From positions 1 to 50,594 of the forward strand of contig CANREC010000004.1 of NCBI GenBank assembly GCA_947629535.1: a stretch of 50,594 nucleotides of DNA, given 5' to 3'. The first letter of the stretch is position 1. Each line of letters opens with the position of its first letter. A model generated the notes under the pieces. It saw nothing but the letters and a program-made list of their open reading frames with translations. It searched no databases and had not been told where the DNA came from. The position numbers and the translations under genes were made by a program. Positions 26,780 to 50,594 of this stretch are shown here, piece by piece. The stretch is from an uncultured Clostridia bacterium. GTDB taxonomy: Bacteria > Bacillota > Clostridia > Christensenellales > Borkfalkiaceae.

Positions 26780-28852
26780 TTATGTTTCGATCACGTCGAG
26801 CTCGGAAAGCGCCTTGGTACAACGAGCGATCTCCTCGTAATCCTCTTCGCGTTTCTCCTCAAACTGATACGCCTCGTTTGATTCCGTCATAAAATATAAA
26901 CATGTGAGAATTTGATTAAGTTGTTCCGAAGCGCTTTGAGTATACTCCTGCTGCCGGCTATCTTTCTGTCTGTGCAAATCAAGCTCATTTTTCTCTAATT
27001 CTCTCTCCCTCAGCACTATACTTATTTCTCTCTCTCTATTTCTTTGCTCCTCATCTGCAACGTATGCTTTACTCTTCTTTATTTTTTTGTTATTCACCAA
27101 AGCGAACGGAAAAAGAAAAAGAAATAGTCCCGGAATAATGAGAAATATTAGTGGATTTATTGTGCTCTCTTTGCTTTTTTTCATTTCTTTGCTGTCCTGT
27201 AAAGCATATCTGTCTTGGGTCAACTCATCGCGTTCTTTTTTTAAGTTATACTTTGCAACCCGAATCGACTTTTCCTTCTCCTCAAATTGCTTCTTTTCGG
27301 CCTCGTACCGTTCAAGACTTTCTTCCCGCGCTTCAACTTCTGCGGGATACAGCGTTTCCATTGTCTCAGTATACAAAGTCCCAAAGAACTCAGTCAGCTT
27401 CTCTTTCAGAGCGTCGTCGGCGAATTCGTCCGCGAGCTTTAAGTTTTTCGAAGACCTGATCTCCTCCAAGACGGAGACGTCGAGGATATCGACGACGCCA
27501 TCCTCATCGTCTTCCCCCATTTCTTCCAGAAACGCCTCCCACCAGCGCTCCCCGTTGAAGATCTCGTCCTGAAAGTCCTTTACGCGCCGTGCAAACTCCC
27601 CCGACGCGTATTCGACGGCGTTCTTATATTTGTCGTTTTCGCGAATTTCGTCCAACAAATCCGCGTCGAGCGAGGGAAGGAGCTCGTCCTCTTTTCTGAC
27701 CTTCATCTCCATGAGGAAGAGTCCCCACCATGCCTCGGCGCAGTCGGGTTTAGCGTCGAGCGCACGCGTATAATAGTCGAGCGCATCCTGCGTCTTGTTC
27801 ATTCTGAGCATCTGTTCGGCGCGGATCAGAAAGTTCTTGACCGAGCCGCCGCCCATGCTCGCCAGCCGTTCTTCGATCGCGGCCTGCTGACGTTTCTGTT
27901 CCTCGATCTGGCGCCTGAGCTCCTCGTCGTTCTTGCTCTTTTCGCTCTTCCCGAGTTTGCGTTCAATGGCGTCGGCAAGCAGAACTTCATACCCTCCTGC
28001 CGCATGGCGGCTCAGATCGATCCCCTGCGCACGCAAGAAGGGGGGAAGCTCCCGCACTTCTTTTCCGTCAAACACCGCGCAAGCAACTCCGCTCAGTTTT
28101 TCCTCCTCCATGCGCTGTTCAAAACGGGACCATTCGTTTTTGACCCAAGCCGCGTCGACATACTCGGGGCGGGTAGCGACGAGGATGAAGAACTTGCAGC
28201 TGTACAGTGCGCGGAAAATGATAGGCTCGTAGTCGTTGAACAGAGCATCGTTGAGCGTGACGTCCGAAAAGAATGTCTTGAACCCGCGCCTCGTGAGCTC
28301 ATCGTAGATCGTGCGGGCGATCCGCGCGTCCCTCGTCGGATTGTCGTAATCGTCCGTGGACTTGAAGGAGATAAAAACGTCAAAATCTTCGGCCCTCTCC
28401 GTCCTGCGGAGAATATCCTTTTGGAGACGGTCGATCTCGTTCGCCTGCACGGTATAATCGGCTCGCTGTTCCTCTGTCGCCGTCCCGATCGCACGGAGAT
28501 AATCGTCGTTTTCAAGAATGCTCTGCCGCACGGCGCGGTGGCAGGTCGGTATGTAGCGTCCCGTGCGCCGATCCTTGACGTATTCTATGCCGTAGGTACT
28601 CAACACAAGTCCCCAAAATGCCTCTGCATCCTCCGGATTCTCCTCAGTGATGATCCTGTATTCCCGAATGGCATCCGAAAAACGGCTGTCGCGACGGAGC
28701 GCGTTCGCCCGTGCCAAAGACAGCAAAAGCGCCTCTCCCTTGGGCGAGCGAAACAGGATCTGATGGTTACAATAGGGACACTTTGCCCGAAGTCCGTCTT
28801 CGGACAAGATCATTTCGCCGCCACAGCGGTCGCATTGCATGGTCGTCTTCAT
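26780..28852 (-). CDS. Zinc-ribbon/TPR/TIR-domain membrane protein
   Basis: A 690-residue multidomain protein. An N-terminal zinc ribbon (Cys7, Cys10, Cys25, Cys28) is followed by TPR-like helices (about 43-110) and a TIR domain (about 157-245: DFDVFISF, TRDARIARTIYDEL, FKTFFSD, WVKNEWSRF). The TIR keeps a glutamate (Glu209 in DYEPIIFRAL) at the position of the catalytic Glu of NADase TIRs, so NAD cleavage or a cyclic-ADPR signal is plausible. A second TPR-like pair (340-385), charged coiled coil, one membrane helix (566-586) and a cytosolic coiled coil follow. Bases 26.88-27.46 kb are clearly AT-richer than neighbours. Last gene of an SPFH-membrane protein-TIR operon. Related TIR proteins are common in gut Firmicutes; their role is not established to my knowledge. 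Confidence 0.88.
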   Translation of the reverse strand: MKTTMQCDRCGGEMILSEDGLRAKCPYCNHQILFRSPKGEALLLSLARANALRRDSRFSDAIREYRIITEENPEDAEAFWGLVLSTYGIEYVKDRRTGRYIPTCHRAVRQSILENDDYLRAIGTATEEQRADYTVQANEIDRLQKDILRRTERAEDFDVFISFKSTDDYDNPTRDARIARTIYDELTRRGFKTFFSDVTLNDALFNDYEPIIFRALYSCKFFILVATRPEYVDAAWVKNEWSRFEQRMEEEKLSGVACAVFDGKEVRELPPFLRAQGIDLSRHAAGGYEVLLADAIERKLGKSEKSKNDEELRRQIEEQKRQQAAIEERLASMGGGSVKNFLIRAEQMLRMNKTQDALDYYTRALDAKPDCAEAWWGLFLMEMKVRKEDELLPSLDADLLDEIRENDKYKNAVEYASGEFARRVKDFQDEIFNGERWWEAFLEEMGEDDEDGVVDILDVSVLEEIRSSKNLKLADEFADDALKEKLTEFFGTLYTETMETLYPAEVEAREESLERYEAEKKQFEEKEKSIRVAKYNLKKERDELTQDRYALQDSKEMKKSKESTINPLIFLIIPGLFLFLFPFALVNNKKIKKSKAYVADEEQRNREREISIVLRERELEKNELDLHRQKDSRQQEYTQSASEQLNQILTCLYFMTESNEAYQFEEKREEDYEEIARCTKALSELDVIET

Positions 28853-28870: not shown

Positions 28871-29272
28871 TTATTCCGTGTAAAGAGCCCGCTCGGCAAT
28901 GAGACGGAAAATCTGTTTCCCGTCGCCGATCGGCTCCCCCGACTGCGCCTTGGCTCTCATCGTTTCAAGCTCCGTCTTGATTTTTTCATCGATGCCATGC
29001 ACTTGCTCCTTCAAGGAGGGCGAAAGGTAGCAGAGTTTTTCGCGAAGTGCAAGGAGTGTTCCCCGCTCTTCGATGCGCGCGTCCTCTTCGATGACCCCGA
29101 GAAGGCGTACGTTGTACTTGATCTGTTCGCCACTCTTTACGAGAATATCCTTGTCAAGCGGTTCGTCAAAGGGAACAGGCTTTTTCCGTAATTTCTTTAC
29201 GATGAAAAAAATGAGAACGCCCGCCACGGCGGCTGAGATCACTGCGATCAACACGATCCAAACGGTTTTCAT
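28871..29272 (-). CDS. Small single-pass membrane protein of the SPFH-TIR module
   Basis: A 133-residue protein with an N-terminal helix (residues 3-25) and a cytosolic helical domain of about 100 residues (KYNVRLLGVIEEDARIEERG, LREKLCYLSPSLKEQV, KIKTELETMRAK). The basic stretch KKLRKK after the helix puts the C-terminal domain inside. No family recognised. It lies 9 bases after the SPFH gene and 18 bases before the TIR gene, so it is almost certainly in the same operon and could be an adaptor bringing them together at the membrane. Confidence 0.75.
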   Translation of the reverse strand: MKTVWIVLIAVISAAVAGVLIFFIVKKLRKKPVPFDEPLDKDILVKSGEQIKYNVRLLGVIEEDARIEERGTLLALREKLCYLSPSLKEQVHGIDEKIKTELETMRAKAQSGEPIGDGKQIFRLIAERALYTE

Positions 29273-29281
29273 AAGACCTCC

Positions 29282-30307
29282 TTACAGCGGCGTCCCGCAT
29301 TCGCCGCAGAACTTTGTCCCGACGGGATTTTCCTTCCCGCAACGGGGACAGACGGGTTTGACGGGAGACGTGGGCTGTCCGCAATTTCCGCAGAATTTCG
29401 TACCCGTCTGCAAAGGAGCGCCGCAGTTTTTACAGAAGGCGGCGTTGCCCTTGCTTTCCCAGCCGATCTCGCGCGTCACTTCCATGTAGCGCTCGTCCTT
29501 CCTCGCCTCCAGTTCGAGACGGAATTTCTCTCTTTCCCATTCTCTGTCCTCACGCCGTTCACGCTCGGCGATCTCCATGGCGTGCGCTTGCTTTTCCCGC
29601 TCCTCCCGATCGGCGCGATCGACGTCGGCGCGTTGCAGTTCGTCGCGGCGCACGCGCTCGTTCTCGATCCGGCGCCTGTCCTCTTCGTCGATGCGGATAT
29701 CCTCGATCGTGAAAGATGTCATCTCCAGTCCGTAATCCTTATCGAACATCTCAAAGATCTCAGGATAGACTTTCTTTGCGATCTCCCCGCGATGGGCAGA
29801 GAACTTGTCGTAAGATAGACCCATCTCCTCTACGGTCCGCATGACCGCAGGCTCTACCTTTTCCAATATCCGTACGAGCATGCGGTCGTGGAGCCGTTCG
29901 ACGGAGTAGCTCTTCTCTGCGCCGATGAGTTCAAGATATGCCTTTCTCGGATCGCGAATGCGGACCTCATATTCTCCTCTTGCCCCGACATGAAAGGCGA
30001 TATCGGTCGCCTTGTCCCGAAGAACAAACTTGTTCTGTGTGCCCCAGAACGTGCGAAGTTTAGCGGTTCGGGAAAGATAGATGACCTCTACATGGACAGA
30101 GCCCACTTTCTTTCCGTCCCGAACGTCAAAGATGGGATGGGCGCCCGCACCGAGCGTATCCATCATTCGACCGTCTTTGATGAGGATCGCATTGTGCGTC
30201 GACGGCACGATCACTTGCGCGTCAACATCGAGATCGGTCACCCCGATACGCTCGAAGATCTGCTCATTATCGCCCGAGAACACGATCCTTTTACGATCGT
30301 AAACCAT
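29282..30307 (-). CDS. SPFH/band-7 protein with two C-terminal zinc ribbons (YdjI-like)
   Basis: A 341-residue protein. SPFH/band-7 domain at about 25-205 (VIVPSTHNAILIKDG, GARGEYEVRIRDPRKAYLEL, ITKY-like amphipathic segments). A highly charged coiled coil (205-285) and two zinc ribbons follow (Cys292/295/306/309 and Cys320/323/334/337). Architecture matches B. subtilis YdjI-type proteins, which form membrane assemblies with partners and recruit PspA. The start at 30307 is set by GGAGGAG. It is the first gene of the operon; its promoter holds an 18-base G tract. Likely a membrane scaffold for the TIR protein; inferred. Confidence 0.88.
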   Translation of the reverse strand: MVYDRKRIVFSGDNEQIFERIGVTDLDVDAQVIVPSTHNAILIKDGRMMDTLGAGAHPIFDVRDGKKVGSVHVEVIYLSRTAKLRTFWGTQNKFVLRDKATDIAFHVGARGEYEVRIRDPRKAYLELIGAEKSYSVERLHDRMLVRILEKVEPAVMRTVEEMGLSYDKFSAHRGEIAKKVYPEIFEMFDKDYGLEMTSFTIEDIRIDEEDRRRIENERVRRDELQRADVDRADREEREKQAHAMEIAERERREDREWEREKFRLELEARKDERYMEVTREIGWESKGNAAFCKNCGAPLQTGTKFCGNCGQPTSPVKPVCPRCGKENPVGTKFCGECGTPL

Positions 30308-30331
30308 GGTTTTCTCCTCCTGTTTTCTTAT

Positions 30332-30368
30332 ATGATACAACCACCCCCCCCCCCCCCCCCCATGTCAA
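30332..30368 (-). promoter_or_regulatory. Putative phase-variable promoter of the SPFH-TIR operon
   Basis: Minus strand: consensus -35 TTGACA (30368-30363), then T, 18 Gs, TGGTTG, then -10-like TATCAT (30337-30332). The spacer is 25 nt instead of 17; a tract of 10 Gs would restore 17. TATAAG at 30332-30327 is an alternative -10 (spacer 30). Confidence 0.7.
30344..30361. repeat. 18-base homopolymer (C on plus strand)
   Basis: Eighteen consecutive Cs, the only homopolymer of this length noticed in the window. It lies within the core promoter spacer of the SPFH-TIR operon. Its exact length may vary between cells or be misjudged by sequencing. Confidence 0.95.
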
Positions 30369-30378
30369 GCAATTTTAT

Positions 30379-30428
30379 CAACATTACAAAAAAATCGGCA
30401 CTTATGCGCCGATTTTTTTGTAATGTTG
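30379..30428 (-). terminator. Long perfect terminator hairpin (right copy of the 31-bp repeat)
   Basis: A perfect 21-bp stem (30379-30399 with 30408-30428) and ACTTATGC loop, with T7 on either strand, one base past the stop of the M23 gene. It separates the sporulation genes from the SPFH promoter. Confidence 0.92.
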
Positions 30429-30429
30429 T

Positions 30430-31110
30430 TTACTTTTCCCCGAGAACTTCGCCGAGGTATTCGGTGGGATCGACGGCCTTGCCGTTGACCATCACCTCAA
30501 GGTGCAGATGTTCGCCGTCCTTTCTCTCGATGCCGTAGGCCTCGGCGACGACGCCGAGCTTTGCGCCCTTCTTGATCGCCGCGCCTTCCTTGAGCGTTTC
30601 ATCGGGCTCCACGAAACGGTACAGCGTCTTGAGGCCGTCGCCGTGGTCGACGAGGATGAGATTGCCCGTCTCCTCAGAGTAGGAGATGCTCTCCACCGTC
30701 CCGTCCGCCATGCAGCAGACTTCCGTTCCCGCCGCCGCCTCGAAGTCAACGGCCCTGTGGCGGTAGATCCAGCCGAGCGTCTCGTTGGGGTAGATGATGT
30801 TGTACTCCACCGTGTACTTTGCCCCTTCAATGGGCGAGACAAACTTGACGGTGTCCTCTCCGCCCGAAGGCGTGCTCGGCTCCTTCCCTTCGTCGTCGGG
30901 CTGATTCTGGTCGCCCGTTCCGCCCGTGCCGCCTACGTCGCCCGTGTTTCCCTCATCGCCTGCGGGGGGAACGTCGAGCACTTGCTGCGTCCCGTTCGTC
31001 AGAAAGTAGACGGTGAGGACGGTCGCCGCGATGAGGAGCAGCACGCAGACAGAGAGCACAATGTAGTACAGCAGTTTCTTTTTCTTGGGTTTTGCGTTTT
31101 CTTCGTTCAT
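30430..31110 (-). CDS. Membrane-anchored M23 (LytM) peptidase-like protein, SpoIIQ-like
   Basis: A 226-residue protein: basic N terminus, one membrane helix (13-36), a Gly/Asp-rich linker (45-85) and an M23 domain (about 95-220). The zinc ligands are all present: His118 and Asp122 in HRAVD, and His203 in HLHLEV, so the enzyme may be active, as in clostridial SpoIIQ (the Bacillus SpoIIQ lost a ligand). Size, single anchor and a YwmB gene next to it support the SpoIIQ assignment, where it would act in the forespore membrane during engulfment. A general cell-wall endopeptidase is the alternative. Confidence 0.82.
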   Translation of the reverse strand: MNEENAKPKKKKLLYYIVLSVCVLLLIAATVLTVYFLTNGTQQVLDVPPAGDEGNTGDVGGTGGTGDQNQPDDEGKEPSTPSGGEDTVKFVSPIEGAKYTVEYNIIYPNETLGWIYRHRAVDFEAAAGTEVCCMADGTVESISYSEETGNLILVDHGDGLKTLYRFVEPDETLKEGAAIKKGAKLGVVAEAYGIERKDGEHLHLEVMVNGKAVDPTEYLGEVLGEK

Positions 31111-50214: not shown

Positions 50215-50594
50215 CATCCCCCCGCTCATTCTGTCTCTTCGCTCAATCTGAGCCCTCGCTGTCATCCCGAGCTTGTCGAGGGATCTCTTTAATTAAAAAT
50301 TAAGGATCAAGAATTGTGGTAGTATGCTCATTCTGCCCCGCGCGCATTCTTGTTGCACCAAGCGCGGCACGAGCCCGTAGGGCGAAGTAGCGTCAGCGAA
50401 GGATCCCAGCAAACCTACGGACTTCGTTTAGGGGATCCTTCGACACGCCGCCTTTGGCGGCGGCTCAGGATGACGCGCGGGGCGCGGGGGGGGGCAACCC
50501 GACGATGCGTCATTCTGAGCGTCAGCGAAGGATCCCAGCAAACCTACGGACTTCGTTTAGGGGATCCTTCGACACGCCGCCTTTGGCGGCGGCT
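50215..50594. repeat. Terminal repeat cluster with a duplicated block
   Basis: 380 bases with no gene. After CATCCCGAGCTTGTCGAGGG and CCGCGCGCATTCTTGTTGCA-type units, a block of about 76 bases is present twice (about 50390-50465 and 50519-50594). It holds GCGTCAGCGAAGGATCCC, ACCTACGGACTTCGTTTAGG, GGGATCCTTCGACACGCC and a CGCCTTTGGCGGCGGCT end. It continues past the window edge. Confidence 0.85.

Follow-up and report, generated by a model that had tools for sequence, protein, structure and literature searches.

An uncultured Clostridia bacterium carries, directly in front of an operon for an SPFH protein and a TIR-domain protein, a −35 hexamer followed by 18 consecutive Gs and a −10-like hexamer. 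This locus raises the question of whether the expression of the operon is switched by gain and loss of Gs in the promoter spacer, as was proposed in a sequence-only reading of the DNA. In the following, the window is the entire stretch of 50,594 nt that was analysed, handles such as G064 denote genomes (G000 being that of the window), and tract lengths are given as G9, G18 and so on.

Anatomy of the promoter

The promoter region was read base by base on the minus strand and contains the following elements, listed together with the start codon of the SPFH gene:

30368-30363, minus strand: −35 hexamer TTGACA
30362, minus strand: single T between the −35 hexamer and the G tract
30361-30344, minus strand: homopolymer of 18 Gs inside the promoter spacer
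30343-30338, minus strand: TGGTTG, between the G tract and the −10 hexamer
30337-30332, minus strand: −10-like hexamer TATCAT
30321-30314, minus strand: Shine-Dalgarno sequence AGGAGGAG of the SPFH gene
30307-30305, minus strand: SPFH start codon ATG

This confirmed the arrangement TTGACA-T-G18-TGGTTG-TATCAT with a total spacer of 25 nt. The promoter had also been placed 30 bases before the SPFH Shine-Dalgarno sequence, which proved to be wrong: the end of TATCAT is located 10 nt from the Shine-Dalgarno sequence and 24 nt from the ATG, and six bases separate the latter two. The homopolymer lies between recognisable −35 and −10 boxes, as in contingency loci of the porA/tp0126 type. Its length of 18 Gs is the assembly consensus of a single draft genome of 138 contigs.

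The SPFH-TIR operon and its surroundings

The genes and the hairpin around the promoter are as follows:

30430..31110, minus strand: M23 peptidase gene, upstream of the SPFH promoter (Pfam PF01551, 6.9e-20)
30380..30427, no strand assigned: terminator-like, near-symmetric hairpin in the M23-promoter interval, flanked by an A run and, on its opposite side, a T run (scan and folding)
29282..30307, minus strand: SPFH/Band 7 protein of 341 aa with a C-terminal double zinc ribbon (Pfam PF13421, 1.9e-16; PF12773, 1.7e-10)
28871..29272, minus strand: 133-aa protein, 9 bases past the SPFH stop (a 133-aa ORF is present at the same place in G069)
26780..28852, minus strand: 690-aa protein with N-terminal CxxC pairs, TPR, TIR_2 (159-283) and TPR (Pfam TIR_2, 1.6e-8; TPR_16, 7.2e-10)

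By their coordinates, the SPFH and 133-aa genes are separated by 9 bases and the 133-aa and TIR genes by 18 bases. A Pfam search with the 133-aa protein gave no match. The 690-aa protein does contain a TIR domain, as TIR_2 scored 35.5 bits against a curated cut-off of 28. Its WVKNE motif, which is common to the TIR proteins of the window, G069 and G064, presumably resembles the catalytic motif of SARM1. When PADLOC-DB 2023 was searched (E ≤ 0.1), the SPFH and 133-aa proteins had no match, and the TIR protein matched only PDC-S66 (E 0.0011) and Cas8g (E 0.027). Judged by matches to described families in this database, the operon did not fall into any anti-phage TIR defence system known so far.

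Folded for the minus strand, the hairpin at 30380..30427 reached −33.8 kcal/mol (z −11). The terminator scan reports it on the plus strand only; we read it as also terminating the minus-strand M23 transcripts, since the core hairpin is followed by seven Ts. It is predicted to separate the SPFH-TIR operon from the upstream M23 gene. A minus-strand search for promoter-like sites with a spacer of 16-18 nt detected none between the one at 31153-31125, before the M23 gene, and the one at 29169-29142, inside the operon, and the 18-G promoter appears to be the only evident one ahead of the operon. Two weak promoter-like sites are located within the operon (29169-29142 and 28884-28857, with 9/12 matches each), the second of which sits immediately 5′ of the TIR gene. 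Altogether, the scanned stretch held four promoter-like sites with a spacer of 16-18 nt, compared with 1.4 in shuffles.

Recurrence of the design across the clade

In the window genome (1.70 Mb, 138 contigs), runs of at least 10 Gs occur at three places, and the 18-G tract is the sole run of at least 11 Gs. A relaxed pattern (G6 or more between TTGAC and TANNNT) identified two promoters in this genome, while the reversed pattern identified none. The second promoter has a G9 tract and a spacer of 19 nt and precedes the gene for an ABC-transporter ATPase (L222, G000:C29:13440-13470). A homolog of this ATPase in G064 (L067; 77% identical) has a G11 promoter with a spacer of 20 nt. Another nine-G run, on the plus strand at position 50486 near the end of the window, lies outside any TTGAC...TANNNT setting.

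Among 103 genomes of the same genus, the pattern TTGACN{0,10}G9N{0,10}TANNNT matched 84, whereas the reversed pattern had zero matches in all genomes listed. Tracts of at least 11 Gs numbered 68, in 42 of the 103 genomes, and many of those that were fetched are flanked by TTGACA on one side and a TATAAT-like box on the other. When −35 and −10 boxes (at most 2 mismatches) were sought around tracts of at least 10 Gs, they were found in 17/65 cases on the G strand and in 0/65 on the C strand; these 65 tracts come from part of the loci, and 6 were too near an end to be scored. The reversed-pattern and C-strand controls ruled out a chance coincidence of G tracts and promoters. Stricter patterns were matched at the family level (G8) in 85 of 301 genomes and 9 of 18 genera, at the order level (G9) in 51 of 396 genomes and 5 of 33 sampled families (f1, f3, f19, f28 and f32), and at the phylum level in 1 of 249 genomes; reversed controls gave zero among the rows listed.

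The promoter can occur in several copies. In G060 (L224-L251), a near-identical TTGACA-G8-TATAAT promoter with a spacer of 15 nt (14 nt in a G7 copy) is present at 19 places. All ten unique downstream proteins that were read have a lipobox, and nine of them begin with MNTKKWL; the promoter appears to have been copied along with the gene family. In G008 (C39:47202 and 47294; L159), a G9 promoter is doubled, 92 bases apart, before one lipoprotein gene.

Tract length, tract position and spacing

Most of the collected promoters come from G000-G042, as the listing of the genus matches ends at G042. In a set of 127 promoters chosen for a tract of G9 or more and with loose boxes, the tract began as early as base six of the −35 box and ended as late as right before the −10 box, and its distances to the two boxes were correlated at −0.80. 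The spacer variance was 3.5, whereas shuffling the parts gave 22.7 on average, and 0 of 10000 shuffles were as low. Exactly nine Gs were found in 94 of the 127 promoters; tracts of 11-23 Gs were also found in the same promoter setting. Avoidance of the 17-nt spacing was weak in this looser set, with 17 promoters at exactly 17 nt and 54 at 16-18 nt. Of 41 promoters in the fetched loci whose G runs stay below 6, 32 had a spacer of 17 nt.

The strict set was defined by TTGACA...TATAAT with at least G5, and the counts given here are for the first 150 places listed, ending at G033. The longest G run was G5 in 68 places, G6 in 19, G7 in 7, G8 in 13, G9 in 34, G10 in 7 and G11 in 2. A spacer of exactly 17 nt was present in 60/87 promoters with G5-6 versus 4/56 with G8 or more, the spacers of the latter clustering at 15-16 and 19 nt. 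The behaviour changes at seven to eight Gs. In the G9 promoters with a spacer of 15 nt (n=13), the tract begins at only two places; in those with a spacer of 19 nt (n=31), its starts are scattered between the sixth base of the −35 box and a point 9 nt past the box. Loci L150 and L190 both have G9 with spacers of 16 versus 13 nt, the difference being due to indels outside the tract. In a cluster of six lipoproteins with 34-55% protein identity, the tract is kept while the spacers vary from 16 to 21 nt.

Length differences between homologous promoters

Single-G differences were found in several homologous promoters. The promoters of G022 (G8) and G024 (G9) have 139/140 equal flank bases, and two further pairs, G003/G033 (G9/G10) and G003/G024 (G10/G9), have flanks that are 93-98% identical. 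Paralogs within one genome differ in the same way: G11/G12 in G439 (flanks equal at 59/60 positions on the left and 65/80 on the right), G8/G9 in G051 (55/60 and 52/80) and G10/G9 in G042 (right flank 67%). In a first comparison, 23 of 32 homologous pairs had equal tract lengths, and six of the nine unequal pairs involve one G7 copy in G060, where the other 18 of 19 places have G8. In a second comparison, lengths were equal in 8 of 11 pairs, a twelfth pair (G022:C2/G024:C3, G8/G9) having been excluded as its flanks were not alike. Of five pairs between genomes, three were unequal (G003/G033, G003/G024 and G022/G024) and two were equal (G004/G018 and G005/G017).

Very long tracts coincide with the ends of contigs. 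Fourteen of the 68 tracts of at least 11 Gs in the genus start at most 65 nt away from the beginning of a contig, and in G061 three of 20 examined contig starts are in, or at most 8 nt from, TTGACA-G20 to G26 tracts. These three contigs (C5, C15 and C19; L256, L266 and L270) have similar upstream flanks, which together with their starts at long G tracts indicates that the G061 assembly is broken up by a promoter family with very long G tracts. Since long G runs break assemblies, the number 18 should be treated with care. One contig of G031 (C4; L055) opens with G16-TGT-G26 and resembles a poly-G sequencing artefact.

The MutL domain PF01119 was detected in G000 and in 270 of 297 genomes of the order, including genomes of all five tract-bearing families; G369, which bears tracts, is among the genomes without a match. 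A loss of mismatch repair is unsupported as an explanation for the long tracts, with PF01119 present in G000 and most genomes of the order, and given the MutL domain in G000 no global mutator needs to be assumed.

Genes behind the G-tract promoters

The sequence-only reading had not recognised the design as a theme of the whole clade, found mostly before genes for lipoproteins and ABC transporters. For 147 promoters (G7 or more), 13 of which were dropped for want of a downstream ORF of 60 aa or more, 132 unique proteins were obtained. Of these, 61 were predicted lipoproteins, compared with 10 of 243 background ORFs (Fisher p 8e-23); the lipobox was defined by our own regular expression, and the background ORFs were at least 150 aa as opposed to 60 aa for the test ORFs. 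The paralog-rich genomes G057 and G060 supply 16 of the 132 proteins, all 16 with a lipobox, which leaves 45/116 for the remainder. A Pfam tally of 96 of the 132 proteins gave ABC_tran 21, LRR_5 6, collagen repeats 5, zinc ribbons 5 and the prepilin motif 3.

It had been suggested to align the promoter in related genomes, and this comparison gave a divided outcome. On the one hand, G064 has a G9 promoter (spacer 18 nt) of its own, 37 nt before an SPFH gene whose product is ~32% identical to the SPFH protein of the window. This gene is followed in the same direction by others (L108:7002-12888), including one for a TIR protein with 29% identity over 377 positions to the TIR protein of the window. 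The leucine-rich repeats and 4Fe-4S motifs on this TIR protein are an unusual domain combination. On the other hand, the closest relative found, an SPFH-133aa-TIR row in G069 (SPFH 48% identical; TIR protein 57% over 436 aligned positions), has an ordinary operon promoter, TTGACT-17-TATAAT, without a G tract. A close relative of the window promoter itself was not found: the SPFH protein of G069 is the nearest among the 103 same-genus genomes, and a GTDB 220 scan gave two loci that matched the zinc-ribbon end only. That the tract is intrinsic to SPFH operons was ruled out, since G069 and G049 use ordinary promoters of 17-nt spacing and in G091 none was plain by eye.

A probable slippage-variable promoter and its alternatives

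The anatomy of the promoter, its recurrence across the clade, the strand bias, the wider and shifted spacers, and the single-G differences of some homologous promoters are direct observations. Relatives carry the same G-run design ahead of many genes for surface proteins, and it is therefore probably a slippage switch of expression. We accordingly favour, with fair confidence, the explanation that the G18 tract is part of a slippage-variable promoter of the porA/tp0126 type, which is OFF as assembled and belongs to a clade-wide set. Strand slippage during replication would add Gs to the spacer or remove them, and a change in the G count would change the distance between the −35 and −10 boxes. 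With a spacer near 17-19 nt, corresponding to G10-G12 at this locus, the promoter should work; at the assembled G18, with a spacer of 25 nt, it would be OFF or very weak. As G18 is 6-8 Gs away from a good spacing, several slippage steps would be needed. The clade-wide device would consist of G8-G13 tracts, rarely longer, in the spacers of otherwise consensus promoters, often of genes for surface lipoproteins and ABC transporters. If so, the tracts would slip in living populations and control ON and OFF states, the operon would be OFF in most cells, and many of the assembled copies across the clade would be in a weak or off state. The proposal of a phase-variable promoter is thus partly supported: the tract in the spacer, the hairpin, the lack of another site with 16-18 nt spacing directly ahead of the SPFH gene, the recurrence in the clade, the single-G differences elsewhere and the G9 promoter of the SPFH...TIR locus in G064 speak for it, while the ordinary promoter of G069 and the weak sites inside the operon speak against it. 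Further counterpoints to slippage are that the peak at G9 is sharper than free slippage would suggest, that most homologous pairs have equal tracts, that the 17-nt spacing is avoided weakly in the looser set, that spacers also change by indels outside the tract, and that at the window locus one tract length is known, from a single assembly.

The main rival to slippage is a fixed G-rich spacer, in which G8-G10 would be a stable element that is bound by a regulator or sets a permanently weak promoter (spacing 15 or 19), with no switching. The sharp peak at G9, the equal tract lengths in most homologous pairs, the clustering of strict-set spacers at 15-16 and 19 nt, the two tract starts in the 13 promoters with spacer 15 and the retention of the tract among the six divergent lipoprotein homologs would all fit such an element. 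We nevertheless consider it unlikely, because the tract start varies widely in the 31 promoters with spacer 19, unlike a fixed operator, near-identical promoters differ by one G, and tracts as long as 11-23 Gs share this setting. Somewhat less unlikely, and compatible with slippage, is the idea that the real tract is shorter and that G18 arose as an error of sequencing or assembly, in which case the promoter may be ON at ~G10-G12. The genome is indeed a draft in 138 contigs, draft assemblies misreport long G runs, assemblies of the genus break at such runs (14/68 tracts; 3/20 contig starts in G061), and the contig start in G031 looks artefactual; but the tract of the window is internal, flanked by the −35 box and, on its other side, by the −10 box and gene start, and G9-G13 versions of the design are found in many genomes. 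The least probable alternative, which we regard as improbable, is that the tract is inert, with transcription of the TIR gene, if not of the whole operon, starting elsewhere. It would account for a spacer of 25 nt that is far from the 17 nt of ordinary promoters and would agree with the promoter of G069, and the weak sites in the operon could serve the TIR gene. Against it stand the very stable hairpin just upstream, the preserved consensus −35 box and the lack of a minus-strand site with 16-18 nt spacing between 31153-31125 and 29169-29142.

Taking slippage as the preferred reading one step further, five families of one order may run a genome-wide bank of G-tract switches, with up to ~20 promoters per genome. 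The targets would comprise transporters, lipoproteins and two or more distinct SPFH...TIR loci, and even a putative effector of immunity or stress would then be mostly off and switch randomly. We regard the odds for and against this wider picture as even. If slippage of the tracts does take place in living cells, a large uncultured lineage would have a general regulatory device that is legible from its DNA, and the spacer of each promoter would predict its ON or OFF state. For the TIR/SPFH operon, this would bear on how cells silence potentially self-harming effectors.

Comparison with known systems

To our knowledge, promoter-spacer slippage has been described for individual genes or small gene groups in a few pathogens, and we know of no earlier case of such a switch on a TIR/SPFH operon. 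This kind of mechanism is already known; its scale, the taxon and the TIR/SPFH operon as a target were absent from the open-access literature matches listed. Invertible promoters are switched by recombinase-driven inversion, with no homopolymer. In gut bacteria they represent promoter phase variation in commensals, according to an excerpt of the source (PMC11868660). The pili of Bifidobacterium breve are surface structures of a gut commensal that, in the excerpted text, are switched by slippage of an intragenic G tract (PMC9187656); the tract there lies within the gene and not in a promoter spacer.

The closest parallels come from a source on Treponema pallidum, which we cite from excerpts (PMC7864442). 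For tprL, tract lengths of 7-11 Gs are given in vivo, with most at 9, and for tprE/G/J 8 or fewer Gs are permissive. The tprL tract and those of the clade studied here both peak at 9 Gs; tprL and tprE/G/J have poly-G in their promoters, although in the excerpts its placement between the boxes is less plain than for tp0126. In porA of Neisseria meningitidis, the poly-G lies in the spacer, as in the window promoter, and expression tracks the −35/−10 spacing (PMC7864442); porA differs in that it encodes a single outer-membrane porin of a proteobacterium. The tp0126 gene of T. pallidum (OmpW-like) likewise has poly-G between the −35 and −10 boxes, with transcription best at a distance of 17 (PMC7864442). 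This is the arrangement of the window promoter; but where tp0126 encodes a spirochete outer-membrane protein, the predicted promoters described here precede genes for lipoproteins and ABC transporters as well as an SPFH-TIR operon.
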